Shown: positions 13,218 through 45,981 of the stretch, piece by piece
How the letters are laid out: each line of letters starts with the position of its first letter
Position numbering within the stretch: the stretch's first letter is position 1
IMG/VR virus record: IMGVR_UViG_3300030098_001309
Location: 1-48,298 of that record
Strand: one strand, 5' to 3'
Origin: a virus
Length of the DNA: 48,298 nucleotides
Made by a program: the position numbers and the translations under genes
Notes under the pieces: generated by a model
The model's database searches: none
What the model was told of the DNA's origin: nothing
Seen by the model: the letters and a program-made list of their open reading frames with translations, nothing else

Positions 13218-15998
13218 ATGGCCAGCACATATGTAAATGATTTACGGCTCAACGAGATGGCTACCGGAGATGGTAGCGGTACGTGGGGCACAACAACGAA
13301 CACAAATTTGGAGCTAATCGCTGAAAAATTTGGGACAGGAAGCGAGGCTCTTTCGGACGCTAGTACAGCAACCATCACGATGGCTGACGGTGCTAGTGAT
13401 GCATTTCGCTCTTTGGCCCTTACTCTGACAGGATCTCTCTCACAAGCTTGTACAGTCACGTTAGCTCCAAATACTCTTTCTAACGTATGGGTGGTTCAGA
13501 ACTCCGCTGGTAACACAGTTACACTAAGCCAAGGCACAGGCGCAAATGTAGTTATACCAAACGGCGGTATCCGCATGGTGGCTACTGACGGTGCTGGCTC
13601 TGGAGCAGCGGTTACAGATGTACTTGATGTATTAGGCGGTACGGGCAACGTAGGGCTTGGTAGCGGTGCGTTTGGTACAGGGCTTACCACAGGTACAGAT
13701 AATGTAGCAATAGGTGACTCTGCGGGTGATGCATTAACTAGTGGATCTCACAATACGTTTGTCGGTGATAACGCTGGCAGTGCTACAACTACTGCAAGTA
13801 ACAACACGGCAATAGGAGCGGATGCTCTTTTAGTTAACACTACGGGGTCGGGAAATGTTGCAGTTGGCTATCTTGCTGCGGATGCGAATACGACAGCTAG
13901 TGGTAATACGGCTGTAGGGGGTTGGGCTTTAAGCACCAACACAACAGGAGCTAACAACACCGCCATCGGTAGTACCGCTCTTTTTGATAACACAACAGGA
14001 GCTAACAACACCGCACTTGGGTACGAAGCTCTCGCAAATAACACTACTGCAAATTACAATGTTGGTTTAGGTAATTATACGCTTCATACCAACACCACAG
14101 CGTCAAACAACACCGCTGTCGGATATGTGGCAATGTACGCCAACACCACAGGCAGCTCTAACACCGCAGTTGGTTATGCAGCGTTGGACGCGAACACCAC
14201 AGGCACAGAAAATGTTGCTGTTGGAAAAGACGCTCTAACTGCCGCTACTACTGGAAACTACAACACAGCAGTTGGCGCACTTTCATTAGATGCCAATACC
14301 ACCGCTTCAGATAACACCGCATTTGGGTATGCTTCGATGACCTCGAATACCACAGGTGCTGCAAATACGGCTGTGGGCAGAGATGTGATGAATGCTAATA
14401 CCACAGGAAATTACAATGTCGCTTTAGGTGCTTATGCCTTAGACGCTAACACTACCGCATCAAACAATACAGCCATGGGGTATCAGGCTTTAACGGCCAA
14501 CACTACGGGTGCTGGGAATGTAGGGGTTGGTGTGGGCGCATTAGGGGCTAACACTACAGCGGCAGATAATACGGCTGTCGGAACTAACGCTTTGTTAGAT
14601 GTTACCACTGGGTCAAATAACACTGCGGTGGGAACAAGTGCATTAAAAGAAAATACAGGAGCTTATAACACGGCTGTTGGTCGTGGTGCTGCCCAAAACA
14701 ACACATCAGGTGAAAGAAATGTAGCCGTTGGATATGACGCTTTAAACGATAACACCACCGGAAACTACAATATCGCTATCGGCGATAGAGCGTTAGATGC
14801 AAACAGTACTGGTTCTGAAAACGTAGCTATTGGAGCAAGTGCGTTAGGAGCAAACACGACAGCTAGTAGTAATGTTGCAATTGGCAACAACGCCTTACTA
14901 GTCAATACGACAGGTTACCAAAATACTGCAATTGGATCTGGTTCATTAGATGCGTGTACTACAGGTGCTTTTAATATTGCAGTTGGGGGTGGAACTTTAA
15001 GTGCTACTACAACTGCAAACTATAACACTGCGGTGGGATATGCTGCTGGAAATGCGTTAACGGGAAGCCAACAGAATACTCTAGTGGGTTATTACACTGC
15101 GGTAGTTTGTACTACTGGAGCCAATAACAGCACCTTGGGGGCATACACTTTAGATGCAGCAAACTCTGATTACAATATTGCAATAGGCTCTTATGCTACG
15201 TCAAACGCTACAACAGGCCACTCTAATACGGTGGTTGGGTATGCTGCTGGTGATGCGATCACAACGGCTGCTTACAACTGCTATATCGGAAGAGATGCAG
15301 GCACCTCTTCAACGACAGGAGAAGCTAATACGTTTGTAGGTGGTTATTTAACTGGTGGGGGTGTTACTACAGGAAGCAATAATGTGTTTGTTGGATATGC
15401 TGCTGGGTATAACAATGTAACTTCGTCAACAGGTGGCAGTAATGTGCTAGTTGGGGGTAACGCTCATTGCACCAACGCAACTACATCAAATTCTGTAGTG
15501 CTTGGGGCAGACTGTTTAGGCGTTGGTGGGGATGGTTATGTGACTATAGGAATTGATGGTTCTGGAGGCAGTGACACTACTGACAGGATTTATAATCAAT
15601 ACACAGCTAACGCAACTTGGACGCATAGCTCTGACGAAAGATTTAAAAAAGAAATAGAAACCAACGAAGATTGTGGTTTAGATTTCATAAACGATTTAAG
15701 AACAGTTACCTATAAATGGAGAGCTGGGTCTGAGCTTGATCCTTCGCTGCCATCATACAACCCTGACAGAACGGAGCCTCGTTACAAAGATCGTTTGTAT
15801 GGAATGATTGCTCAAGAAGTTAAAGCTGCTTTAGATAAGCACAATATAAAAGACTTTACAGGTTGGCATGAATCAACAGAAGGCAATCAAGGTATATCTG
15901 AATCAATGTTTGTTTTTCCATTGATAAATGCGGTTCAAGAATTATCTGCCAAGGTGGATGATTTGACCGAAAAACTTGATAAATGTAATTGCGAATAG
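13218..15998 (+). CDS. Tail fibre: YadA-head-like repeats plus S74 self-cleaving chaperone
   Basis: This 926-residue protein is the probable receptor-binding fibre. Residues about 1-140 are an attachment domain (LRLNEMATGDGSGTWGTTTNTNLELI). Residues about 145-790 hold dozens of 15-25-residue repeats of the type NTAVGYxALxANTTGxxN, as in trimeric autotransporter (YadA) heads and left-handed beta-rolls. The last roughly 120 residues are a peptidase S74 intramolecular chaperone: HSSDERFKKEI with likely cleavage before Ser805, DFINDLRTVTYKWR, YGMIAQEVKAAL and a final coiled coil QELSAKVDDLTEKLDK. Such chaperones trimerise the fibre and then release themselves. The promoter at 13164 may drive it. 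Confidence 0.93.
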   Translation: MASTYVNDLRLNEMATGDGSGTWGTTTNTNLELIAEKFGTGSEALSDASTATITMADGASDAFRSLALTLTGSLSQACTVTLAPNTLSNVWVVQNSAGNTVTLSQGTGANVVIPNGGIRMVATDGAGSGAAVTDVLDVLGGTGNVGLGSGAFGTGLTTGTDNVAIGDSAGDALTSGSHNTFVGDNAGSATTTASNNTAIGADALLVNTTGSGNVAVGYLAADANTTASGNTAVGGWALSTNTTGANNTAIGSTALFDNTTGANNTALGYEALANNTTANYNVGLGNYTLHTNTTASNNTAVGYVAMYANTTGSSNTAVGYAALDANTTGTENVAVGKDALTAATTGNYNTAVGALSLDANTTASDNTAFGYASMTSNTTGAANTAVGRDVMNANTTGNYNVALGAYALDANTTASNNTAMGYQALTANTTGAGNVGVGVGALGANTTAADNTAVGTNALLDVTTGSNNTAVGTSALKENTGAYNTAVGRGAAQNNTSGERNVAVGYDALNDNTTGNYNIAIGDRALDANSTGSENVAIGASALGANTTASSNVAIGNNALLVNTTGYQNTAIGSGSLDACTTGAFNIAVGGGTLSATTTANYNTAVGYAAGNALTGSQQNTLVGYYTAVVCTTGANNSTLGAYTLDAANSDYNIAIGSYATSNATTGHSNTVVGYAAGDAITTAAYNCYIGRDAGTSSTTGEANTFVGGYLTGGGVTTGSNNVFVGYAAGYNNVTSSTGGSNVLVGGNAHCTNATTSNSVVLGADCLGVGGDGYVTIGIDGSGGSDTTDRIYNQYTANATWTHSSDERFKKEIETNEDCGLDFINDLRTVTYKWRAGSELDPSLPSYNPDRTEPRYKDRLYGMIAQEVKAALDKHNIKDFTGWHESTEGNQGISESMFVFPLINAVQELSAKVDDLTEKLDKCNCE

Positions 15999-16010
15999 GA
16001 GACAACAGCA

Positions 16011-16352
16011 ATGGCAGTTAAGAAAACTTTAATAGGAGCCATTCCATCTTCCAAAGATGGCAAGGTAGTTCGCTGGGATGTTCGGATGAAGTACGAACAA
16101 GGCACTGAGGGCCAAGCGGATTACTATACTAATGACAAGAACGCAACAATTGACGCTACTATAGATCACCCAGATGGTTCAACCGTAACTAACTTTACTG
16201 CTAAAGCAGAAAAAGATTGGTCTAAAGCGGATATTGAAGCTATTTGCCCAACAGCTAAATGGGATGCAGTATTTGCTAGCCAATACGATTCAGTAATTAC
16301 GAACCCAACTGTTAATCCTGAAGCTAATACCGAGTTTGTAATACCGAGTTAA
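16011..16352 (+). CDS. Small protein downstream of fibre, unknown function
   Basis: This 113-residue single-domain protein (SSKDGKVVRWDVRMKYEQGTEGQADYYTNDKNATIDATID, KAEKDWSKADIEAICPTAKWDAVFASQYDS) lies 12 bases after the fibre gene, where fibre assembly chaperones often sit. No match to a known chaperone is evident. It has no membrane segment or signal. Its stop overlaps the oxygenase ATG by one base (TAATG). Confidence 0.65.
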   Translation: MAVKKTLIGAIPSSKDGKVVRWDVRMKYEQGTEGQADYYTNDKNATIDATIDHPDGSTVTNFTAKAEKDWSKADIEAICPTAKWDAVFASQYDSVITNPTVNPEANTEFVIPS

Positions 16353-17056
16353 TGGAAGAGCAACACTATACATTCCATACGCTACCAGCAGTATTTATGT
16401 TGGAAGCACAACTATCGGAAAGCATGGTAGGCACACTTAATGACTACCTAGATAAGCTAATGGTGGATGAAAAACGCAAAAGTCATGCGGGTACGTTGGT
16501 AGGTCAGATAGGCCACGGGCAACAGTTGACTATGGATCACCATTGCGAAGAGTTAAAAGACTTTAACTGGACGATTCAGGGTTTGGCAATGGACTACGTT
16601 AAGCAGTTCTGCGCTCAATCTGGCAATCCACTACAAGGCAAAAGAGAAGTGTTAACCGATGAGTTGTGGTCGGTACACAGCTACGAGCGTGACTATAACC
16701 CAATTCACGATCATGGGACTAAAACCATTATGGGTGTTTCCTGCACCACATGGACAAAAGTACCACAACAGATATTAGACTTACCCACAGCAGGTAGTTC
16801 TGAGTACAGCTTATATAACTCATCAGGTAATGCCGATGGTTGTTTAGCGTTTAGCTATGGCCGTAATAGTTTATTAGACATAGAAAGGTTAGCTCCTCCA
16901 CAAAGCTTTGTCATTAAGCCAGAAGTCGGAAAGTTTTTAATGTTCCCTAGCTGGTTAACACACATGGTTTACCCTTTTGAGGGTGAAGGAGAACGGCGCA
17001 CTGTCGCTGCAAATTTGAATGTATGGAAGGTAGATGATGACGGAACAAGACACTAA
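16352..17056 (+). CDS. Putative 2OG-Fe(II) oxygenase, prolyl-hydroxylase-like
   Basis: The 234-residue protein carries the double-stranded beta-helix signature of phage 2-oxoglutarate oxygenases: YNPIHDHGTK (His119/Asp120/His121, first iron-ligand region), then FVIKPEVGKFLMFPSWLTHMVYPF with His204 as distal ligand, and GEGERRTVAANLNVW with Arg215/216 for 2OG binding. This fits the group that is common in cyanophages and marine phages and whose substrate is unknown. Which His of the HDH trio binds iron is not clear. Position behind the fibre suggests hydroxylation of a tail protein, but a nucleic acid or host protein substrate is equally open. Confidence 0.75.
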   Translation: MEEQHYTFHTLPAVFMLEAQLSESMVGTLNDYLDKLMVDEKRKSHAGTLVGQIGHGQQLTMDHHCEELKDFNWTIQGLAMDYVKQFCAQSGNPLQGKREVLTDELWSVHSYERDYNPIHDHGTKTIMGVSCTTWTKVPQQILDLPTAGSSEYSLYNSSGNADGCLAFSYGRNSLLDIERLAPPQSFVIKPEVGKFLMFPSWLTHMVYPFEGEGERRTVAANLNVWKVDDDGTRH

Positions 17057-35805: not shown

Positions 35806-37317
35806 TTGGATATAGCACAAAAACTGCATGAAATATTCCATGGCTCGAGTCGAGCTCACGGAAGTTTTAAAGTAGAAAGTGCTTCGCTAGGACAGAAAAC
35901 ACAAGGAAAAGCAAAAACAATTAAAACTGCTGGGGCCAGTTTAAAACATTGGCAAGACCATGTAGCAGGGGTAGAGGGTCTAGGGGTCATACCGATAGAC
36001 GAAGAAAATTCAGTCAAGTGGGGAGCTATAGACATAGATGTCTACTCACTAGACCTAGAAAAGCTAGTAGCTAAGATAGAAGAATTTAAACTACCGCTGG
36101 TGGTTTGTCGTAGTAAAAGCGGTGGTGCACATGTTTTTTGTTTCCTTAGGGAAAAAGTTCCGGCTGCTGACATGCAGGATAAATTAAGAGAAATAGCAGC
36201 AGGACTGGGTTACGGGGGAGTAGAGATATTCCCTAAACAAAGAGAAGTTTTAGTCGAGCGAGGTGACATAGGTAGTTGGCTTAACATGCCATATTTCGAA
36301 GGAGATGAGTCTTTGAGATATGGTTTTGATACTAAAGGTAAAGCTCTTACACTGACTAAGTTCATAGAGTTTGTAGAAAAGCGGTGTATAAGCCATCAAG
36401 AATTAATAGGGCTAGAAGTCCCGATAGTAAACGACATGCTAGAGGGGCCACCGTGCCTTCAGGTTTTGTTAGAGCAGGGGTTTCCTGAAGGTACAAGAAA
36501 CAACGGTTTATTTAATGTAGGAGTCTACCTTAAAAAGTCAGACCCTGAAAATTGGGAAACTGAGATAGAGGAGTACAATCGTAAGTACGTTCACCCTCCT
36601 CTACCTGCTCAAGAGGTGCTTACTTTGATAAGCACGTTAAAGAAGAAAGACTATAACTACAAGTGTAGTGACGAGCCTATCAAATCATTCTGTAATGTGT
36701 CTAAGTGTAGGATGTGTAAGTTCGGTGTGGGTGGTGGTAACACTATACCTACTTTTTCTAGTTTATCTAAACTAGACACAAAACCACCACTCTGGTTCTT
36801 ATCTATTAACGATAAACGCCTTGAGTTAAATACAGAACAGCTCCAAAATCAGCTAAAATTTCAGCGTGCATGCATGGAATTACTCAATATGATGCCTCCA
36901 CGCATGAACGATAGAGCTTGGCAAAATCTCATACAGACTTTGATGGATAGTGGTATGGAGGTTATTGAGGTTAGTGAGGACGTAACTATAGAAGGCCAGT
37001 TTATGGAACTTCTTGAATCTTTCTGTACTGACATGGCTCAAGCTAATACAAGAGATGAGATACTCCTAGGTAAACCGTACACAGAAGATGGTAAAACATA
37101 TTTTAGAATCAAAGACCTTAAAGAGTATTTAGTCAAGCATAGATTCACAGACATGGAGACTAACCGAGTCGCCTCTAAATTGAGAGACCTCAAGGCCAAT
37201 CATAAGTTTTTTAATATTAAAGGCCGAGGGACTAATGTCTGGTACATAGATGAGTTTGAGTACAGAGAAGACGAGGGTAGTCTAGAAGCTAAAGATTTTC
37301 AGGAGAAAACTCTGTGA
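35806..37317 (+). CDS. Archaeo-eukaryotic-type primase (AEP/TOTE-like) with C-terminal Cys cluster
   Basis: The 503-residue protein has WGAIDIDVYSLD (Asp76 and Asp78, the metal-binding DxD) followed by VVCRSKSGGAHVFCF (about 100-112), the SxSGxxH-type motif of AEP primases, and VEIFPKQ. A C-terminal part resembles PriCT-like regions (GTRNNGLFNVGVYLKK), with Cys287, Cys296, Cys301 and Cys304, which could hold zinc or an iron-sulphur cluster. The TTG start is forced: an in-frame stop precedes it and the next Met is after the catalytic residues. GGAG lies eight bases upstream. It would make primers for the phage polymerase. Confidence 0.82.
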   Translation: MDIAQKLHEIFHGSSRAHGSFKVESASLGQKTQGKAKTIKTAGASLKHWQDHVAGVEGLGVIPIDEENSVKWGAIDIDVYSLDLEKLVAKIEEFKLPLVVCRSKSGGAHVFCFLREKVPAADMQDKLREIAAGLGYGGVEIFPKQREVLVERGDIGSWLNMPYFEGDESLRYGFDTKGKALTLTKFIEFVEKRCISHQELIGLEVPIVNDMLEGPPCLQVLLEQGFPEGTRNNGLFNVGVYLKKSDPENWETEIEEYNRKYVHPPLPAQEVLTLISTLKKKDYNYKCSDEPIKSFCNVSKCRMCKFGVGGGNTIPTFSSLSKLDTKPPLWFLSINDKRLELNTEQLQNQLKFQRACMELLNMMPPRMNDRAWQNLIQTLMDSGMEVIEVSEDVTIEGQFMELLESFCTDMAQANTRDEILLGKPYTEDGKTYFRIKDLKEYLVKHRFTDMETNRVASKLRDLKANHKFFNIKGRGTNVWYIDEFEYREDEGSLEAKDFQEKTL

Positions 37318-38810
37318 CGTGGAACGTGGTACTTGGTCCACCTGGGACTGGTAAAACCACGTATCTTTTAGACAAAGTTGAGCAATTCTTAGACTCGGGT
37401 GTGAGACCTGAAAAGCTAGGATATGTGGCGTTTACTAAAAAAGCAGCAAACGAGGCACTAACCAGAGCTATAGAAAAGTTTGACTACGATGTTGAAGAGT
37501 TAACCTATTTTAGAACACTACACTCTTTGTGTTACCACTGGCTGTCACTCTCTAGAAGTGACGTTATGGATAGAGGTAACTTGAGAGAGTTCAGTAAGAG
37601 TGTTGGTGAAAGAATTAGCTCAGCTTGGGATGGTGAAAATTTACTAGCCTTGACTAGTAAAGGCGACACCATGTTATTTTTAGAAAACATGTCAAGAAAC
37701 CGTTGTGTTGGATTTAGAGAGCAGTGGAATAACTCTAACTCAAACATTTCATGGATGCATTTTGATTGGTTCATCAAAAACTACAAGAACTACAAAGAAG
37801 CTAATTTTTTAATAGACTACACAGACATGCTAGAAATGTTTCTACAGTCTAGAGGTTCACCTAATTTAGAGGTATTGATAGTTGACGAGGCACAGGATTT
37901 ATCTGCTCTTCAATGGCGGTGTATACAGAAATTAGCTGAAAATGTTGAGCATGTATACATAGCTGGCGATGATGATCAAGCTATTTATCGTTGGGCTGGC
38001 GCAGACGTCGAACATTTTATCAACTTGAAGGGTGACAACACGTATTTGAAACAATCTTATCGTGTACCTAGGAAAGTGCACGACGTTGCGTTAGGAATCG
38101 TAAAGCGCATAGGTAACAGAAAAGAAAAAGTCTGGGAACCTAAGGAAGAGGAAGGAACAGTTAGTTACCACACCAACTTTGAGCATGTAGACATAAGTAA
38201 GGGGGACTGGTTATTTTTAGCTAGAAACAATTACCTGTTAAACGCTGTAGAAGAACACCTAAAGGTTAATGGCCGTGTTTATCTAAAAGGTAATAAACCC
38301 TCTGTGTCTGAGACATTGATAAACGCCATAAGGGATTGGGAAAATCTTCGTAAAGGAAAAACTATAGAGGCTGGCAGAATAAGAAAAATCTATAACTATA
38401 TGAAGGTTGATAGAGGTGTAAAAAGAGGGTATAAAACTCTTAAAACCGTACAAGACGACATGCCCCTCAACCTATTTCAGTTGAAGCAAGACCATGGCCT
38501 ACTGGTTGATAGCATATGGCATGAGTGTTTTGATTTGATCGGTAATACTCAAAGGGAGTATGTGATTTCATGTCTTAGACACGGTGAAAAACTTATGTCT
38601 TCCCAGATCAGGTTGAACACTATACATGCAGCTAAAGGCGGTGAGTGTGAGAACGTTGTGCTATTAACAGACCTAGCCACTAAAACATGGGACGAGCTGT
38701 ATAAAAACCCTGATAATGAATGCAGGGCATTTTATGTAGGCGTCACAAGAACTAAAAACAACCTGCATTTAGTTAGAGGCAAGACACGCAAGGAGTTTTT
38801 ATTTGTATGA
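37314..38810 (+). CDS. UvrD/PcrA-like SF1 helicase
   Basis: The 498-residue helicase starts with GTG, overlapping the primase stop. It has Walker A GPPGTGKTT (residues 8-16), Ia VAFTKKAANEALTRA, II VDEAQDLSALQW, III YIAGDDDQAIYRWAGAD, IV KQSYRVP, V LNTIHAAKGGECENVVLLTD and VI RAFYVGVTRTKNNLHLV: a complete UvrD-type SF1A set. It probably unwinds the template at the phage fork, next to primase and polymerase. It is shorter than cellular UvrD (about 720 residues), so accessory subdomains are reduced. Confidence 0.93.
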   Translation: MTWNVVLGPPGTGKTTYLLDKVEQFLDSGVRPEKLGYVAFTKKAANEALTRAIEKFDYDVEELTYFRTLHSLCYHWLSLSRSDVMDRGNLREFSKSVGERISSAWDGENLLALTSKGDTMLFLENMSRNRCVGFREQWNNSNSNISWMHFDWFIKNYKNYKEANFLIDYTDMLEMFLQSRGSPNLEVLIVDEAQDLSALQWRCIQKLAENVEHVYIAGDDDQAIYRWAGADVEHFINLKGDNTYLKQSYRVPRKVHDVALGIVKRIGNRKEKVWEPKEEEGTVSYHTNFEHVDISKGDWLFLARNNYLLNAVEEHLKVNGRVYLKGNKPSVSETLINAIRDWENLRKGKTIEAGRIRKIYNYMKVDRGVKRGYKTLKTVQDDMPLNLFQLKQDHGLLVDSIWHECFDLIGNTQREYVISCLRHGEKLMSSQIRLNTIHAAKGGECENVVLLTDLATKTWDELYKNPDNECRAFYVGVTRTKNNLHLVRGKTRKEFLFV

Positions 38811-39385
38811 TTAAATTTACTAAAGGTCTTTTTACTGGTCACAACCCTAAAATATTCAGTTGGGATAACCCCACTCACAGGGTGTTTAACGGTGAGGTGG
38901 TCAAAGGTAGAAAAACAAAGGGTTATGGTACGTCTGCATTTGAATATGCAGGTAAAAAATACGAACCTGAACCATGGACCACTCAACTACTTCATGAAAA
39001 AAGTGTCGCAGAAGCATACGTTAATCAAACTTTGGGCAGAGACTTAAAATTTACTTTCTGCCTTTGCGGTCTGTATGAAACAGGAGAAGAGTGGATACCC
39101 CACCACTCTGACACAGTTCCTACACTTGATGATATTGTTTTGAGCGTTTCTTTCGGTGCTCCTCGACTGATTAACTTTAGAGAGTATCAGTACAATGTAA
39201 AGAAGCACACCAACACTAGTGATACCAAGACTCCCAGTAAATGGGTGAAAGAATATAACTACATCATGGAGGATGGTGACGCCATATTGTTTGATGGACA
39301 TTCTCAGATGAAGACTACCCATTCAGTACCACCTATAGAGGGGTCAGGTAGAAGAATTAGTTTGACGTTTAGGACAGGTTTGTGA
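38807..39385 (+). CDS. AlkB-like 2OG-Fe(II) dioxygenase
   Basis: The 192-residue protein matches the AlkB catalytic core: FCLCGLYETGEEWIPHHSD with His100-x-Asp102, then IVLSVSFGAPRLINF, DGDAILFDGHSQMKTTHSV with His172, and GRRISLTFRTGL, where Arg183 and Arg189 keep the R-x5-R spacing of AlkB. These are the iron and 2OG ligands. AlkB oxidatively removes alkyl groups from DNA or RNA. In a phage with a base-modification cluster it could also act on a modified base, but repair is the family default. It overlaps the helicase by four bases. Confidence 0.87.
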   Translation: MIKFTKGLFTGHNPKIFSWDNPTHRVFNGEVVKGRKTKGYGTSAFEYAGKKYEPEPWTTQLLHEKSVAEAYVNQTLGRDLKFTFCLCGLYETGEEWIPHHSDTVPTLDDIVLSVSFGAPRLINFREYQYNVKKHTNTSDTKTPSKWVKEYNYIMEDGDAILFDGHSQMKTTHSVPPIEGSGRRISLTFRTGL

Positions 39386-39405
39386 CAAAAATTTTTAACA
39401 AAATT

Positions 39406-39431
39406 CCTATACTTTCCCTTTACAAGTAAAG
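39406..39431 (+). promoter_or_regulatory. CCTATACT box and CTTTAC/GTAAAG palindrome before the modification cluster
   Basis: In the 60-base gap before 39446, CCTATACT (39406-39413) contains a -10-like TATACT, and CTTTAC-AA-GTAAAG (39418-39431) is a 14-base near-palindrome just downstream, where an operator would sit. The same CCTATACT appears in the gap before the DUF932 gene (46663-46670). No clear -35 was found. Confidence 0.45.
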
Positions 39432-39445
39432 TAAACTAAACGCAA

Positions 39446-39913
39446 ATGAATATATTTAAACTAGACTCTACCCCTAAATTATGTGCCCAAGTACACTGCG
39501 ATAAGCACGTATCAAAGATGATACTAGAGTCTGCTCAAATGCTTTGTACCGCCTTGTGGTCTAATAACCAGACTGCCCCGTATAAGCCAGTACACGCCAA
39601 ACACCCGTGTACCCTATGGTCTGGAGCTAGTCTCGATAACTGGCTATGGCTCAAGGAGTTAGCCTTACGTTTAAATGAGGAGTTTTGCTGGCGGTACGGT
39701 AGGTCAGCTAACCATAAATCAGCTGACATAGTTAAGTCTCTACCTCCTCCTTTGATAAAAAGTAAAGGGCTACAACAACATCCACAATGTATGCCCGAAC
39801 AGTATAAAGTTACTGACGACCCTGTTACAGCTTATCGTAATTACTATAACGGTGAGAAGCATTTTGCCCAATGGACTAAAAGGGAGATACCTTCATGGTA
39901 CAGGAAAATTTAA
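39446..39913 (+). CDS. Conserved phage protein of unknown function (CDKHVxKM family)
   Basis: The 155-residue protein begins MNIFKLDSTPKLCAQVHCDKHVSKMILESAQMLCTAL, a highly conserved pattern in cyanophage and other marine phage proteins that lack an assigned function. It continues PVHAKHPCTLWSGASLDNWLWLKELALRLNEEFCWRYGR..HKS and DPVTAYRNYYNGEKHFAQWTKREIPSWYR. The invariant His, Lys, Glu and Cys residues look catalytic or DNA-contacting. A remote likeness in shape to small DNA glycosylases such as T4 DenV is possible but not demonstrated. It overlaps the next gene by 19 bases. Confidence 0.75.
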   Translation: MNIFKLDSTPKLCAQVHCDKHVSKMILESAQMLCTALWSNNQTAPYKPVHAKHPCTLWSGASLDNWLWLKELALRLNEEFCWRYGRSANHKSADIVKSLPPPLIKSKGLQQHPQCMPEQYKVTDDPVTAYRNYYNGEKHFAQWTKREIPSWYRKI

Positions 39914-40791
39914 AAAGGTTTTTTTACTACATAAATGAAAGACACCGAATATACCTTAAACGCGAGGAAGGCCACAGTTGGCCATGGACTGATGATGAGA
40001 TACTTCAGACCTATAGCTTTTGTAACGTGTTCCGTGAACTAGATACAGTCACTCAATGGATAGAGGATAACTGGCGAGAGCCTTACGCGGATCATCCTAA
40101 CCTACCGTTCTCTATGGCGGTAGCTCGTCAAATTAACTGGCCAGAAACACTAGAGGAGATAGGGTTCCCTGAAGAGTGGGAGCCTGAAAGAGTCAAGTCT
40201 ATAATGCAGGCAAGAATGGATAGAGGAGATAAGGTCTACACAGGGGCGTATATGCTCACTGGTACATTGGGCGGTACTAAAGTGGAACAGACTGTGGATA
40301 AGATACTCACCCCACTCTATGAAAACCAACCCACACTACATAGAGACTCCTTAGAAAAGTCTTGGAGAGAATATCTGCCATACGCTGGGTTTAGTGGGTT
40401 TATGGCTTATGAGGTAGTTACTGATCTAAGATGGACCATACACCTACAAAACGCGGACGATATATACTCGTGGGCTAATGCAGGTCCAGGAGCTCAGAGA
40501 GGGTTGAACAGAATACACGGTAGGCCCGTCAATCAAACTATCAAAACCCATCAGCTAACAGAAGAGATGAAAGATTTATTAGACCTCTCAACAGAAATCG
40601 AGACCTATCCTACTGAGCAGAATATGCAAGACCACCTCAGGTATCTGGCATATTGGATAGACGGACTAGAGATGAGAGATATTGAACACTGCCTCTGTGA
40701 ATACGATAAGTATGAAAGGGTAAGGCTAGGGGAAGGCCGACCCAGAGCAAAATATAAATACAAAGGAGACAAGTATGCCAGCAAATTTTAG
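39895..40791 (+). CDS. Thymine-hypermodification family protein (aGPT-PPlase / 5-hmdU kinase helical domain-like)
   Basis: The 298-residue all-helical protein has RFFYYINERHRIYLKREEGHSWPWTDDEILQTYSFCNVFRELDTVTQW near the N-terminus, the hallmark of the alpha-glutamyl/putrescinyl-thymine pyrophosphorylase and 5-hmdU DNA kinase helical-domain superfamily defined by Iyer, Aravind and colleagues. Further matching parts are HPNLPFSMAVARQINWPETL, SWANAGPGAQRGLNRIHGRPVN, and EMRDIEHCLCEYDKYERVRLGEGRPR near the end. The superfamily is distantly HhH-glycosylase-like and acts on 5-hydroxymethyluracil in DNA. No P-loop kinase domain is fused. The exact activity is unknown. Confidence 0.78.
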   Translation: MVQENLKRFFYYINERHRIYLKREEGHSWPWTDDEILQTYSFCNVFRELDTVTQWIEDNWREPYADHPNLPFSMAVARQINWPETLEEIGFPEEWEPERVKSIMQARMDRGDKVYTGAYMLTGTLGGTKVEQTVDKILTPLYENQPTLHRDSLEKSWREYLPYAGFSGFMAYEVVTDLRWTIHLQNADDIYSWANAGPGAQRGLNRIHGRPVNQTIKTHQLTEEMKDLLDLSTEIETYPTEQNMQDHLRYLAYWIDGLEMRDIEHCLCEYDKYERVRLGEGRPRAKYKYKGDKYASKF

Positions 40792-41140
40792 AGACATTCA
40801 ATCATTGGCAGATATAGATGTACAAAAATTGAAGAAAGCAGAAAAAAGCTATGGAGACAGCTGGCGTGACCGTGGTGGGGTAGGCGCATTTATGATGCTG
40901 GCTCGTAAATGGGATAGGATTGAGAATCAGGTTAAAAAAGATGGTTGGGATATATTCCACACAATCTCTCAAGATTCCAGCGACACAGGGATACTAGACG
41001 ACATACGAGATCTAAGAAGGTATCTTCTTTTAGTTGAGTCTTATACAACTAAAAATCGGTTGGTAAAAGGGGAAGAAGAACCAACTGAACCTATGTTCCC
41101 AGACCAACCTGAGTTTCCATCAACAAGAAAAGAGAACTAA
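40775..41140 (+). CDS. MazG/DUF1599-like small helical protein
   Basis: The 121-residue protein carries KSYGDSWRDRGGVGAFMMLARKWDRIENQ and DTGILDDIRDLRRYLLLVES. The pattern YGDxW..RGG...F....RKWDRIE......D.GxxDDIRDLRRYLLL resembles the DUF1599/nucleotide-modification-associated MazG-like helical proteins, which are thought to hydrolyse or handle nucleotides. It sits between the modification-family gene and dUTPase, overlaps the former by 17 bases, and has a good AAAGGAG site. The similarity is by pattern only. Confidence 0.55.
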   Translation: MPANFRDIQSLADIDVQKLKKAEKSYGDSWRDRGGVGAFMMLARKWDRIENQVKKDGWDIFHTISQDSSDTGILDDIRDLRRYLLLVESYTTKNRLVKGEEEPTEPMFPDQPEFPSTRKEN

Positions 41141-41141
41141 A

Positions 41142-41603
41142 ATGCAAAGTAAAATAGAAGTCAAGCTAATTGACACAAGGTTACCAGATAAGTGTGACAC
41201 CCCAATATTACCTGAGTATGCTACCGCAGGGTCTGCAGGATTAGACTTACGATCAGGCGAGGGGTTTATTCTCAAACCCGGAAGTTCACATAAATTCCAT
41301 ACAGGGATAGCTGTGTTTTTAAATGACCCAAGTATCTGTGGCCTGTTGGTTCCTCGCTCTAGTTTGGGCATAAAAAACATACACCTAACCAATACGCTTG
41401 GTATCATAGACTCAGACTATCAGGGTGAATTGATTGTGCCGCTAACAAACAATGGAGACAAACCTTTTCACGTGAAGGTTGGACAACGAATAGCTCAACT
41501 AGTGGTAATGCCCGTCGTACATGTGCACTGGTTACCTGTTCTTGATTTTAGCGGTGTCACTAAAAGAAACCAAGGCGGTTTCGGCAGCACAGGAGAAAAG
41601 TAA
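41142..41603 (+). CDS. dut: dUTPase
   Basis: The 153-residue trimeric-type dUTP pyrophosphatase has all five motifs: I AGLDLRSG (residues 32-39), II PRSSLG (71-76), III LGIIDSDYQGELIVPLTN (86-103), IV VGQRIAQLVV (113-122), V RNQGGFGSTG (142-151). It converts dUTP to dUMP, keeping uracil out of DNA and supplying dUMP to the thymidylate synthase-like enzyme two genes downstream. It starts one base after the MazG-like stop. Confidence 0.96.
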   Translation: MQSKIEVKLIDTRLPDKCDTPILPEYATAGSAGLDLRSGEGFILKPGSSHKFHTGIAVFLNDPSICGLLVPRSSLGIKNIHLTNTLGIIDSDYQGELIVPLTNNGDKPFHVKVGQRIAQLVVMPVVHVHWLPVLDFSGVTKRNQGGFGSTGEK

Positions 41604-42388
41604 TGAAGATATACATCCCCACAAGAGGTCGAGCATATAATCAGGAGACCTTAAACTGGTTCCCTAAAAGTATGCAAACTGACGGGTCTGTGGTTCTAGT
41701 CGTAGACCCAGATGAACTGGACCAGTACCATAAATACCCAGACACACCCAAGATGGTTATTCCTGAAGGGATGACAGGTATAGGTCCAAAGAGGAAGTAC
41801 ATAGTAGAGAACACAGAAGATCCACGCATCGTCATGTTAGATGATGACCTTCGTTTTTATATTCGTAAAAGCCCGACAGACTGGCATCTGAGGTATTTAG
41901 AGTCTAGTGAATATCCTGCGTTGTTCGGGTTACTAGACGAGTGGATGGATCAAGGATACGCTCATGTTGGGGTAAGTGCTAGAGAAGGTAATAATCGTGT
42001 AGAGACTCTATCGGTTGAAAACACCAGATATATGCGAGTGCTGGGGTATAACCTTGACGCCTTCCCCTCTGATGTAGAGTGGGGCCGAACACAGGTAATG
42101 GAGGATTTTGATATTTCTTTACAGCTTCTTAGAAGAGGCAAAGCGTGTAAGGTAAGTTACTACTACGCACAAGGCCAAAAATCTTCTAATGCAGACGGTG
42201 GCTGTAGTGAATGGAGAACGATAGATGTACATAACGCAGGAGCGGAAAGGTTGCATGAGCTTCACCCAACCTGTGTAAAGGTGGTAGAAAAACAAACTAA
42301 AACAGCTTGGAACGGCTTGCCTCGTAAGGACGTGGTTGTAGGTTGGAAAAAAGCATATAAAGAAGGGGTGGAAAATGCAAGTAATTGA
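41603..42388 (+). CDS. GT-A glycosyltransferase, TET-associated-type (TAGT-like)
   Basis: The 261-residue protein starts MKIYIPTRGRAYNQETLNWF, the typical opening of TET/JBP-associated glycosyltransferases. It then has VVLVVDPDELDQYHKYPDTPKMVIPEG, IGPKRKYIVENTEDPRIVMLDDDLRFY with the DxD-type metal site Asp80-Asp82, and MEDFDISLQLLRRG (about 166-179), a candidate catalytic region. That family glycosylates hydroxymethylated bases in phage DNA. No TET/JBP gene is nearby, but a thymidylate synthase-like gene directly follows, so the acceptor might be hydroxymethyluracil. It overlaps both neighbours. Confidence 0.72.
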   Translation: MKIYIPTRGRAYNQETLNWFPKSMQTDGSVVLVVDPDELDQYHKYPDTPKMVIPEGMTGIGPKRKYIVENTEDPRIVMLDDDLRFYIRKSPTDWHLRYLESSEYPALFGLLDEWMDQGYAHVGVSAREGNNRVETLSVENTRYMRVLGYNLDAFPSDVEWGRTQVMEDFDISLQLLRRGKACKVSYYYAQGQKSSNADGGCSEWRTIDVHNAGAERLHELHPTCVKVVEKQTKTAWNGLPRKDVVVGWKKAYKEGVENASN

Positions 42389-43400
42389 GGTAAGAAACGT
42401 ACACGATGCTCTACTCAGAGGGTTAGAACTTCTCGAGGTTCACGGTATAACCAGAGACAGTAGGAACGGTCAAGTGAGAGAGTCTGAGTGTCCCGTCACT
42501 ACGGTATATCATAGACCACAAGAAAGAGTGCTGTTTTGGGAGCAGAGAGACGCTAACCCATTCTTTCATTTTATGGAGAGCTTGTGGATGCTTGGCGGCA
42601 GACATGACTTGGACTATGTCTACCAGTTCAACAAGGGTATGAAGCGGTACAGCGATGATGGTAAAACTCTGTGGGGAGCGTATGGCTGGAGATGGAGAGA
42701 GTACTGGACAGACCGGACAAATGATCAGTCTATAGACCAACTCAGTATAATCATAAAAAGACTAAAAGAAGACCCAACAGATAGACGCTGTGTTTTACAG
42801 ATGTGGGACGTAGTGTCTGACTTGGATAGAGACGGCAAAGACGTACCGTGCAACACAACTATTTACTTCAAAATTGATGCAGAAAATCGTCTACAGATGA
42901 CGGTCTGTAACAGGTCAAACGATATCATCTGGGGAGCTTACGGGGCTAACGCTGTGCACATGTCAATGTTGCAAGAGTACATGGCTGGAGCTTTGCGTGT
43001 GGATGTCGGTAAATATTATCAAGTGAGTGATAACTACCACGCCTACACAGATGTGTTTAATAAACTAGTGGACAAGTTTTCAGAAATCGATGCGTTTGAT
43101 TTTTTCACAATGAAAGATCTCATTAACTCAAATCCGTACATCACTAACCATACTTACTACCCAATGGTGAATACTACGATAGAGGAATGGGACTTAGACT
43201 TATTAAAATTCTTGGGCAGGACTCCCTTTCAAGAGGTTGAATACAGTGAACCATTTTTCTCAGATGTAGCCGTACCTATACAGGACGCTTGGTGGCACTG
43301 GAAGTTGGACGAACAGAAAGAAGCTATACTAGAAATAGCCAAGTGTGAAGCCAGCGACTGGAGAAAAGTATGCTGGGATTGGTTTAGTAGACGAATGTGA
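42375..43400 (+). CDS. Divergent thymidylate synthase / possible dUMP hydroxymethylase
   Basis: The 341-residue enzyme carries the ThyA fold motifs: RRCVLQMWD (phosphate-binding Arg137/138), DVPCNTTIYFKI with nucleophile Cys159, NRSNDIIWGAYGANAVHMSMLQEYM with the base-binding Asn (Asn192) retained, and YYQVSDNYHAY. Asn, not Asp, suggests dUMP rather than dCMP. The C-terminus ends CWDWFSRRM, lacking the classic TS closing tail, and GAYGAN replaces GLPFN, as in phage thymidylate synthase/hydroxymethylase relatives. It may add a methyl or hydroxymethyl group. Neighbouring dUTPase, glycosyltransferase and hmU-family genes favour hydroxymethyl, but that is unproven. Confidence 0.85.
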   Translation: MQVIEVRNVHDALLRGLELLEVHGITRDSRNGQVRESECPVTTVYHRPQERVLFWEQRDANPFFHFMESLWMLGGRHDLDYVYQFNKGMKRYSDDGKTLWGAYGWRWREYWTDRTNDQSIDQLSIIIKRLKEDPTDRRCVLQMWDVVSDLDRDGKDVPCNTTIYFKIDAENRLQMTVCNRSNDIIWGAYGANAVHMSMLQEYMAGALRVDVGKYYQVSDNYHAYTDVFNKLVDKFSEIDAFDFFTMKDLINSNPYITNHTYYPMVNTTIEEWDLDLLKFLGRTPFQEVEYSEPFFSDVAVPIQDAWWHWKLDEQKEAILEIAKCEASDWRKVCWDWFSRRM

Positions 43401-44094: not shown

Positions 44095-45981
44095 ATGACT
44101 CAAGAACTATTATTCCCACCCGAGGCTGACTGGAAACCACCGACCTCTTTCCCGGACCTGACTAACGTAAAAGAGTTAGCCATTGACTTAGAGACTTGTG
44201 ACCCGTGGCTCATGTCTCATGGTCCAGGGTGGGCGTTCAAGGACAGAGGAGATATCATAGGTATAGCGGTAGCTACTGAAGGATACAAGGGCTACTTTCC
44301 TATTGCGCACACAGCTGGCGGCAATTTAGATGGGGAGGTGGTCCGTAGATGGTTTCAAAAACAGTTAGACGCTCCTAGCGAAAAAATATTCCACAACGCT
44401 CAGTACGATGTGGGGTGGTTAAAGCGTGCAGGTTACGAGATAAGTGGAACTATACACGATACCATGATGGCTGCGCCTCTACTGAATGAGAACCAGTACA
44501 GCTACTCTTTGAATACGCTGGGTAAGTTATACCTCAGTGAAGAAAAAGATGAGTCTATGCTGGACGAAGCTGCACAGGCTTTTGGTGTTAACCCCAAGGC
44601 TGAGATGTATAAATTAGAGGCTAAGTATGTAGGAGCTTACGCAGAGCAAGATGCTGACTTGACCTATAGACTATGGCAAATATTAAAAGAGGGTGTGTCA
44701 ACAGAAGACGTTGCAGACATCTATAAACTAGAAACTTCTCTCATACCTATACTCATAAACATGCGTAGCATGGGGGTGAGGATAGACGTAGACAAAGCTG
44801 ATCAGGTAAAGAAGCAGTTACAAAGAGAAGAGAATAAAATAACAAAAGAAATTAAACGGTGGTACGGGGTAGAACCTGACCTATGGGCAGCTCAATCGCT
44901 AGCTCAAGTTTTTGACAGAGCTGGTCTAGACTACCCTAAAACACCTAAGACTCAGGCACCTAGTTTTGTCGCTAGTTGGTTAGAGGAACACGACCATAAA
45001 CTTCCCATGGCTATTGCCAAAGCTAGAAAACTTAACAAAGCCAGAACCACATTTATAGATAAGATGATACTAGAGCATCTTGTTGACGGTAGAATACACG
45101 GTGAGCTACACCCGCTAAGATCTGATAACGGAGGCACAGTTACAGGGAGGTTCAGTTGCTCTAACCCTAACCTTCAGCAAGTTCCTGCACGTGATCCTAT
45201 GATTGGTAAATTGATACGCAGTCTTTTTATACCGGAACAAGATTCTCATTGGGGGTGTTTTGATTACTCTCAACAAGAACCTCGCCTTACGGTTCATTAC
45301 TCTGTTCTTACTCAGCAGGAGGGTGCGGAAGAAGCCGCTATGGAGTATGCCTATGATGACGCAGATTTTCACCAGATTGTAGCGGACATGGCTAACATAA
45401 GTCGTAAGGAAGCTAAGATTATCAACCTAGGACTGAGCTACGGTATGGGTAAAGATAAGCTAACCACTCAGCTAGGAATCAGTCCAGAGGAGGCTGAAAT
45501 ATTATTTGACCAGTATCACGAGCGTGTACCGTTTATCCGTGGCCTACGCGACTCTGCGGCTCGTATGGGTTCTAACAGAGGTTTTGTTAAAACCTTATTG
45601 GGCCGTAAATGTCGATTTAACCTCTATGAACCGTTTGACCGCAGGGAGCTGCCGTTACCGTTAGAACGCGCCATGGATGAATATGGCGGTAGATTGAAAA
45701 GAGCCTACACCTATAAAGCAATGAACCGTTTAATACAGGGTTCAGCTGCTGATATGACTAAAAAAGCCATGGTCGACTTAGCTAAGGAAGGGTTCTTAGC
45801 ACATACTCAAGTGCACGACGAGTTAAATATTTCTGTAAGCGATAAGAAAGATTGTGAAAAAGCCATAGAGATTATGAGAGACTGCGTTGAATTAAAAGTA
45901 CCTAATAAAGTAGACGCAGAGATAGGTAAGAACTGGGGGGATGTTTTACATTACGAGGACTATTTTAATGACAAGACGTGA
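44095..45981 (+). CDS. polA: Family A DNA polymerase with 3'-5' exonuclease
   Basis: The 628-residue replicative polymerase has exonuclease motifs ELAIDLET (Asp31/Glu33), IFHNAQYDVGWL and YAEQDADLTYRLW, so proofreading is intact. Polymerase motifs are A FDYSQQEPRL (Asp390/Glu395), B RKEAKIINLGLSYG (Arg437, Lys441, Tyr449) and C VHDE (Asp575/Glu576). The residue equivalent to E. coli Phe762 is Leu445, the leucine variant discussed in viral ecology. There is no 5' nuclease domain and no DnaJ insert. It abuts the nuclease gene and overlaps the HTH gene. Confidence 0.96.
   Translation: MTQELLFPPEADWKPPTSFPDLTNVKELAIDLETCDPWLMSHGPGWAFKDRGDIIGIAVATEGYKGYFPIAHTAGGNLDGEVVRRWFQKQLDAPSEKIFHNAQYDVGWLKRAGYEISGTIHDTMMAAPLLNENQYSYSLNTLGKLYLSEEKDESMLDEAAQAFGVNPKAEMYKLEAKYVGAYAEQDADLTYRLWQILKEGVSTEDVADIYKLETSLIPILINMRSMGVRIDVDKADQVKKQLQREENKITKEIKRWYGVEPDLWAAQSLAQVFDRAGLDYPKTPKTQAPSFVASWLEEHDHKLPMAIAKARKLNKARTTFIDKMILEHLVDGRIHGELHPLRSDNGGTVTGRFSCSNPNLQQVPARDPMIGKLIRSLFIPEQDSHWGCFDYSQQEPRLTVHYSVLTQQEGAEEAAMEYAYDDADFHQIVADMANISRKEAKIINLGLSYGMGKDKLTTQLGISPEEAEILFDQYHERVPFIRGLRDSAARMGSNRGFVKTLLGRKCRFNLYEPFDRRELPLPLERAMDEYGGRLKRAYTYKAMNRLIQGSAADMTKKAMVDLAKEGFLAHTQVHDELNISVSDKKDCEKAIEIMRDCVELKVPNKVDAEIGKNWGDVLHYEDYFNDKT

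Follow-up and report, generated by a model that had tools for sequence, protein, structure and literature searches.

The viral contig IMGVR_UViG_3300030098_001309, classed as linear and analysed over its full length of 48,298 bases (hereafter the window), contains seven adjacent open reading frames (ORFs) that were originally predicted to form a cassette for hypermodification of thymine or 5-hydroxymethyluracil (hmU), with a glycosyltransferase and without a P-loop kinase. All seven were found on the plus strand where they had been placed, and the genes of the cassette are confirmed as real. Three of them are the main subject here: the ORF at 39895..40791, encoding a 298 aa protein of the HMUDK_hel family (PF18723, Pfam 4.7e-48; relatives are also annotated as aGPT-PPlase1), the ORF at 41603..42388, encoding a 261 aa GT-A glycosyltransferase of the TAGT family (PF20691; Pfam 3.9e-26, phrog_842 8.9e-52), and the ORF at 42375..43400, encoding a 341 aa enzyme of the thymidylate synthase family (Pfam Thymidylat_synt 4.7e-22). 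The other four encode an AlkB-like oxygenase, a phrog_624 protein of the CDKHV family, a 121 aa protein (40775) and a dUTPase. Profile scans bore out six of the seven predicted families, the Pfam matches of AlkB-like, HMUDK_hel, dUTPase, TAGT and Thymidylat_synt each exceeding the curated cut-off, and left the call of MazG/DUF1599 for 40775 unproven, with no match of DUF1599 (PF07659) at E ≤ 10 anywhere in the window including this product. The genes are adjacent as described, and they overlap at four of the six junctions (by 19, 17, 1 and 14 nt); the other two junctions are gaps of 60 nt between the AlkB-like ORF and 39446 and of 1 nt between 40775 and the dUTPase.

To place the cassette among its relatives, 325 HMUDK_hel loci were merged on an identical 80-residue C-terminal stretch into 193 distinct loci, close relatives being counted apart and genes being considered within 10 kb. 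The genes for HMUDK_hel, TAGT and the synthase share a strand in all 77 distinct TAGT-type loci and follow the order HMUDK_hel-TAGT-synthase in 69 of them, so that their association is not due to chance; the TAGT gene is at most 10 kb away from the synthase gene in 77/77 and at most 100 nt away in 55/77. These three genes, located near the gene for a family A DNA polymerase (PolA; 44095..45981, plus strand, Pfam 2.9e-61), which is a conserved neighbour by synteny, are the conserved core of the cassette. The view of all seven genes as one unit was not upheld, as the AlkB-like, phrog_624, dUTPase and 40775 genes come, go or move among relatives.

Within the same 193 loci, 77 carried TAGT, 40 an hmdU (5-hydroxymethyldeoxyuridine) kinase, eight a GT-B-like enzyme, one both TAGT and a GT-B-like enzyme and 67 none of these, whereas TAGT and kinase were never found together. 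Amino acid:DNA transferase (ADDT) was detected in 27 loci, all of them of the kinase type (27/40). One fetch had been baited with TAGT; omitting this fetch leaves 185 groups, of which 69 are TAGT-type, with the other classes unchanged. Accordingly, 69 of the 77 TAGT-type loci were reached by HMUDK_hel queries or as named records and eight solely via the TAGT query. The HMUDK_hel queries taken from L004, L254 and L075 each returned only two loci. The same picture was obtained with whole records, for which 50 of the 107 first listed were chosen for length and diversity (47 viral contigs, M6, MW202897 and LuckyBarnes): TAGT exceeded its cut-off in 40, the kinase was detected at E ≤ 0.01 in six (four over the cut-off), and no record had both over the cut-off, the TAGT match of phage M6 staying below it at 13.3 bits. 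Four records (L071, L072, L074 and L075) had a match to neither PF18748, the hmdU kinase family, nor TAGT; in L072 a kinase-like ORF was found by our own profile. A family-blind search for Walker A motifs in ORFs of 100-330 aa on the same strand gave a hit near 39/40 kinase loci versus 10/77 TAGT loci, and near 1/8 GT-B-like loci, the single TAGT+GT-B-like locus and 4/14 partnerless loci with a synthase. Three of the ten hits at TAGT loci are motifs inside dUTPase or phrog_624 proteins, and another is a thymidylate-kinase-like ORF (phrog_4121) of Microbacterium phage Librie.

Phylogenetic analysis of HMUDK_hel demonstrated that the partners have changed repeatedly. A careful IQ-TREE analysis of 53 proteins, which omits 18 rows (long branches and near neighbours, including LuckyBarnes and Librie) and the three remaining partnerless rows, requires at least six changes between TAGT and kinase and nine between a glycosyltransferase of either kind and kinase; a quick tree of 74 rows gave seven TAGT/kinase changes. 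Sister proteins with differing partners are L082 (kinase) and L291 (TAGT), with a support of 100/96, and L071 (GT-B-like) and L056 (TAGT), with 100/100. TAGT and the hmdU kinase are thus mutually exclusive in our sample and have been repeatedly exchanged. The GT-B-like class was defined by homology to seven seed ORFs chosen by eye, and its assignments are only probable: L071, L074, L174 and L267 show Pfam glycosyltransferase matches, all under the curated cut-off, L075, L279 and L283 show none at the thresholds used, and the ORF of L306, about 9 kb from HMUDK_hel and outside the Pfam scan, was classed by homology only. The eight GT-B-like ORFs scanned gave no PHROG match at E ≤ 0.01, and PDB profile matches reached 0.11 at best. 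In L071 (10806-13169) a cupin, an FkbM-type methyltransferase and a GT-B-like enzyme occupy the place of TAGT between HMUDK_hel and the synthase, a set that possibly places a methylated sugar on DNA. GT-B-like ORFs also adjoin a radical SAM protein near HMUDK_hel in L075 (1144-4304, by Pfam) and L279 (8733-11377, by eye only).

On balance, we consider it probable that the core trio makes hmU and, once it is in the phage DNA, decorates it by glycosylation without a kinase, HMUDK_hel handling hmU for the enzyme acting on it. HMUDK_hel is the component common to all partner types. The window protein is 40.6% identical to ORF055 of M6, and 25 alignment columns reach a conservation of at least 90% among TAGT-type as well as kinase-type proteins, with R16, R47, D50, D177, G197, G199, E269 and K272 at 100% in the rows of either type. 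Comparing the two types, no column was conserved as differing residues, and no polar column was at least 90% conserved in one and below 60% in the other. As the residues are the same whether the branch phosphorylates or glycosylates, HMUDK_hel most likely acts on hmU, or a hydroxymethyl-pyrimidine, in DNA, and this shared substrate argues against "pyrophosphorylase" and "kinase domain" as its functions. The co-encoded kinase, a feature expected from the name of the alpha-glutamyl/putrescinyl thymine pyrophosphorylase (aGPT-PPlase) family, is likewise absent from the matches in the window. We therefore propose that HMUDK_hel is a shared factor for hmU-DNA recognition or base handling. Its AlphaFold2 model (mean predicted local distance difference test, pLDDT, 91.5) is predicted to fold like DNA glycosylases of the helix-hairpin-helix (HhH) HhH-GPD type: the best match is PaMx11 gp46 (8z2n; Z 11.9, root-mean-square deviation 3.5, 215 residues, 7% identity). 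The next matches are mostly HhH DNA glycosylases, with Z between 10.5 (3knt) and 6.2, besides human DUF2419 at Z 9.6, and after them Z drops to 2.2. A sequence search of the PDB with the HMUDK_hel profile yielded nothing below E 0.4.

The best fold match, a 5-phosphomethyldeoxyuridine glycinyltransferase, and the invariant Arg, Asp, Glu and Lys residues would also fit an HMUDK_hel that is itself catalytic, namely a PUGT-like transferase acting on the sugar that TAGT has added, either replacing or extending it, so that the final base is a new adduct and the sugar takes the role of the phosphate in M6. We regard this as unlikely. Kinase-type phages have these residues fixed as well, and 27/40 carry a separate ADDT nearby, so that HMUDK_hel would need to act in the same way on phosphorylated and glycosylated substrates, and a profile comparison with the single M6 ADDT sequence revealed no sequence relation, although the fold search points there. 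Distant HMUDK_hel relatives (most of L289-L336, mostly 24-32% identical) were seen in contigs from archaea, Alphaproteobacteria and Patescibacteria, and most of them have no synthase close by.

For the synthase, the original prediction of a divergent ThyA as the candidate hydroxymethylase was strengthened by homology and by active-site residues. Over its full length, the 42375 enzyme shares 47.8% identity with the synthase of M6 (50% in a second alignment). Searching 177,635 distinct PDB sequences with a profile of four synthase relatives returned the CMP 5-hydroxymethylase MilA as best match (1.9e-32) and ThyA second (1.3e-25), in agreement with phmmer on the window synthase alone (4e-18 versus 1.6e-13). 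None of the NCBIfam ThyA equivalog models, part of the profile searches proposed as a check, reached its cut-off (best 93.6 versus 174.55 bits). In ThyA an active-site Trp serves in hydride transfer, and Asn or Asp at the specificity site determines the choice between uracil and cytosine. The Trp of E. coli ThyA (W80) aligns to a deletion in 42375, the next Trp pairing with the Y/F of Y-S-D-D-G, and Asn 192 aligns with the Asn of ThyA, whereas MilA has Asp there; we take C159 to be the catalytic Cys and N192 the uracil-type Asn. Among 67 synthase ORFs from 74 representative loci (TAGT, kinase, GT-B-like or partnerless), Cys159 is present in 67/67 and Asn192 in 28/30 TAGT-type, 24/24 kinase-type, 6/6 GT-B-like and 6/7 partnerless rows. 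The 42375 enzyme is thus probably a hydroxymethylase of deoxyuridine monophosphate (dUMP). Asp at the uracil-reading site was found in Librie (L254, 4999-5811), L337, L302 and L281, the last typed TAGT+GT-B-like and therefore outside the 67 rows; owing to this residue, these four may be cytosine enzymes. All four adjoin HMUDK_hel, and the HMUDK_hel/TAGT set may also serve hydroxymethylcytosine (hmC).

The 41603 product belongs firmly to the TAGT family, scoring 92.7 bits against a cut-off of 27.5. Of the two profile outcomes originally named as refuting the cassette, 42375 within canonical ThyA and 41603 outside the DNA glycosyltransferases, neither arose. Its AlphaFold2 model (pLDDT 89.9) has a GT-A fold matching PcManGT (Z 13.8) and GalNAc-T2 (Z 13.6), and it carries an acidic D-D-D motif, with D80-D82 invariant in 28 sequences; the TAGT profile found nothing below E 0.4 among PDB sequences. 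We propose that this enzyme glycosylates hmU in DNA. Its model also matches many cellular GT-A transferases, as would be expected if TAGT modified another target, for example an envelope sugar or protein, and the synthase gave only dTMP or, as in SPO1, hmdU that remains the final base, with no glycosylated base being formed. This alternative is quite improbable, given that TAGT stays close to the synthase throughout the 77 TAGT-type loci and alternates with the hmdU kinase, and that the synthase lacks the marks of ThyA.

As originally noted, no P-loop hmdU kinase was found in the window, where PF18748 had no match at E ≤ 10, nor in a longer, nearly identical contig, G002, where it had none at E ≤ 0.01; in the control at E ≤ 10 this model matched 7/14 control genomes, in none over the cut-off. 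Models for ADDT (PF18724), Tet_JBP (PF12851), Thymidylate_kin (PF02223) and the T4-type alpha-glucosyltransferase (alpha-GT, PF11440) and beta-glucosyltransferase (beta-GT, PF09198) had no match in the window or in G002 at E ≤ 10. The only frame of at least 60 aa with a Walker A motif in the window encodes a UvrD-like helicase, which is again the sole such frame in G002 (60,000 of 60,325 bases, scanned as three pieces). G002 is co-linear with the window, blastn blocks being mostly 93-95% identical with outliers of 440 nt at 88% and 188 nt at 99%, and the end and start of the window map about 13 kb apart in it, so that it covers most of what the window may lack. That a kinase is hidden, being too diverged, supplied by the host or located outside the assembled contig, is very unlikely: the window is linear and about 13 kb short of this closely related 60.3-kb contig, and PF18748 gives low scores to some kinase-like ORFs (17.7 bits for those of G033 and G034) and missed the L072 ORF, but G002 contains neither a PF18748 or Thymidylate_kin match nor a further Walker A frame in the bases scanned, and the family-blind search shows its pattern across 77 distinct loci.

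Gene content, the absence of the searched kinase families, exclusion in the sample, partner switching, shared residues and predicted folds were computed directly, and the following route would account for them. The 42375 enzyme would convert dUMP, in part provided by the dUTPase, into 5-hmdUMP, as its homology and active-site residues suggest. Host kinases would then form hmdUTP, for which no thymidylate-kinase match exists in the window or G002, and the neighbouring PolA would incorporate it. The TAGT-type GT-A enzyme 41603 would subsequently place a sugar on the hydroxymethyl group in DNA, as judged from its family, position and exclusion of the kinase, while HMUDK_hel would recognise or flip hmU in DNA for the respective effector, namely the P-loop kinase in M6-like phages, TAGT here and probably GT-B-like enzymes elsewhere. 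The glycosylated base expected in the phage DNA would likely shield it from host nucleases.

Several observations weigh against this route. No partner was detected for 67 of the 193 HMUDK_hel loci, 14 of which have a synthase, although some are truncated by contig ends, and the bacterial contig groups L259, L260, L261/L280, L262 and L269 show only HMUDK_hel, synthase and 40775 relatives nearby, with no effector found. The Asp at the uracil-reading site of the TAGT-type loci L254 and L337 and of L281 suggests cytosine, and L254 (Librie) has in addition its thymidylate-kinase-like ORF. In one of the 40 TAGT records (G036, L081), the TAGT score equals the cut-off and the match lies a long way from HMUDK_hel within the contig. 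The TAGT of T6 acts on hmC that is already glucosylated, as described in PMC13216743. With respect to HMUDK_hel, Foldseek gave no match at E ≤ 0.001, its own E-value being 0.094, so that the HhH fold is well suggested and not certain, and fold-match Z scores below about 13 can reflect a common arrangement in helical proteins. Fusions of HMUDK_hel to TAGT or to the kinase were not seen, and its many invariant charged residues could signal catalysis instead of mere recognition. Moreover, activity of purified hmdU kinase on hmU-DNA is reported in PMC6457204 and, as unpublished work, in PMC6449724, so the kinase does not strictly need HMUDK_hel. The bacterial groups with only HMUDK_hel, synthase and 40775 relatives include Hyphomicrobium and other alphaproteobacteria.

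The accessory genes of the cassette, all on the plus strand, were counted in a redundant set of 147 loci. The AlkB-like 2OG-Fe(II) oxygenase (38807..39385; Pfam 2OG-FeII_Oxy_2 1.5e-14) is present in 66/147 loci at varied positions and is probably outside the core; a role as JBP-like thymine oxidiser was rejected, with no Tet_JBP match at E ≤ 10 and a gene that moves or is absent in relatives. The phrog_624 protein (39446..39913; 2.5e-49), found in 104/147 loci, overlaps the start of HMUDK_hel by 19 nt and bears a weak likeness to the pyrimidine-dimer glycosylase family Pyr_excise (E 0.03, under the cut-off). The 121 aa protein (40775..41140) reaches no family cut-off and varies in position, its relatives lying near 68/77 TAGT-type, 5/40 kinase-type, 4/8 GT-B-like and 6/67 partnerless HMUDK_hel loci; it shows a short, weak pairwise resemblance (E 8e-4) to a protein that matches DUF1599. 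For LuckyBarnes, inspection by eye made it look likely that a relative of this protein is fused to the synthase, but at an E-value of only 0.009; this was rejected, as our own profile found none. The dUTPase (41142..41603; Pfam 1.7e-30, NCBIfam 5.7e-39), present in 31/147 loci, would supply dUMP.

The replication module that surrounds the cassette is conserved. The helicase gene is directly followed by PolA in DSL-LC04, and three small ORFs lie between the two in HTVC027P, in both cases without the cassette, which is thus present or absent at one site. The portal protein of the window shares 52% identity with its counterparts in pelagiphages HTVC023P and HTVC027P across about three-quarters of its length (75% for HTVC023P), and the G+C content of 38-48% per 2 kb, mostly 40-44%, leaves the host uncertain. 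Elsewhere in the window, an AEP-TOTE-kind primase-like protein (35806-37317, 3e-9, TTG start) is encoded upstream of the helicase, a second 2OG-Fe(II) oxygenase (PF13759, 1.4e-12) at 16352-17056 downstream of a large repeat-rich ORF (13218-15998), and a TIGR03299 phage/plasmid protein (46762-47790, 210 bits), which adjoins the module in many relatives.

Compared with known systems, the cassette shares with that of M6 (Pseudomonas, Yuavirus) a synthase of the hydroxymethylase type (47.8% identical) and an HMUDK_hel protein (40.6%), both encoded near PolA, but M6 has the hmdU kinase gp54 (PF18748) and the ADDT gp51 and no TAGT over the cut-off, whereas the window has TAGT and no kinase or ADDT match. 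Of the components of the M6/ViI kinase route, the window therefore contains HMUDK_hel and, by sequence, the hydroxymethylase-type synthase, and neither PF18748 nor ADDT. In HTVC023P-type pelagiphages, TS and aG/PT-PPlase1 genes, in some with a glucosyltransferase, were reported as partners in 2022 (PMC9599517), by name the same trio near PolA as in the window, if the latter two names are taken to denote the HMUDK_hel and TAGT families. The main text of that report contains "kinase" twice, both times as histidine kinase, and neither "5-hmdU" nor "hydroxymethyl", and the missing kinase, the exclusion and the swaps are not discussed in it. T-even phages such as T6 likewise have a gene for TAGT, with a GT-A fold, beside that of a ThyA-family dCMP hydroxymethylase, but the T6 enzyme attaches a second glucose to hmC that alpha-GT has glucosylated before (PMC13216743), whereas the window synthase is uracil-type and neither alpha-GT nor beta-GT families match.

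Brevibacterium phage LuckyBarnes, a cultured TAGT-type phage, carries synthase-TAGT-TAGT-HMUDK_hel (gp38-gp41) near PolA, with no PF18748 match in the whole record, and differs from the window in its two TAGTs. Its announcement predicts a dCMP-hydroxymethylase and two glycosyltransferases (PMC6588365), whereas we found the specificity residue of the synthase to be the uracil-type Asn. Librie is a second cultured TAGT carrier, probably cytosine-type. PaMx11 gp46, the closest solved fold to HMUDK_hel, shares only 7% identity with it, and its title indicates action on a phosphomethyl base. The predicted product type, glycosylated hmU, is that of the kinetoplastid base J. In base J synthesis, JBP oxidises thymine within DNA, whereas the window has no Tet_JBP match and its 38807 oxygenase is AlkB-type. 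The literature searched yielded no mention of the absent kinase, the mutual exclusion, the partner swaps, the GT-B-like variant or the HhH fold, and nothing relevant turned up on glycosylated hmU in phages; as the main specialist papers were outside this search, novelty is provisional. The trio genes are already known from pelagiphages, and the proposed glycosylating, kinase-free variant of thymine hypermodification is, provisionally, new.

Comparative support for this variant is good, and related phages swapping one enzyme make the set look like a modular kit for disguising DNA. A more far-reaching version, which we put forward tentatively and think may well not hold in full, is that HMUDK_hel is a general HhH-fold adaptor by which hydroxymethyl-pyrimidines in DNA are presented to interchangeable effectors (P-loop kinase, TAGT, GT-B-like), that marine phages make base-J-like glycosylated hmU without JBP/TET or a phosphorylated intermediate, and that the current family names are wrong. 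If the proposed route is true, a kinase-free glycosylating branch would be added to thymine hypermodification, one conserved DNA-handling protein would be common to chemically different branches, and two misleading family names, kinase domain and pyrophosphorylase, would be corrected. Solitary TAGT homologues, found in 288/753 phage genomes and termed potentially novel transferases in PMC13216743, would in some cases gain a candidate role, and glycosylated hmU would be predicted in the DNA of marine phages.

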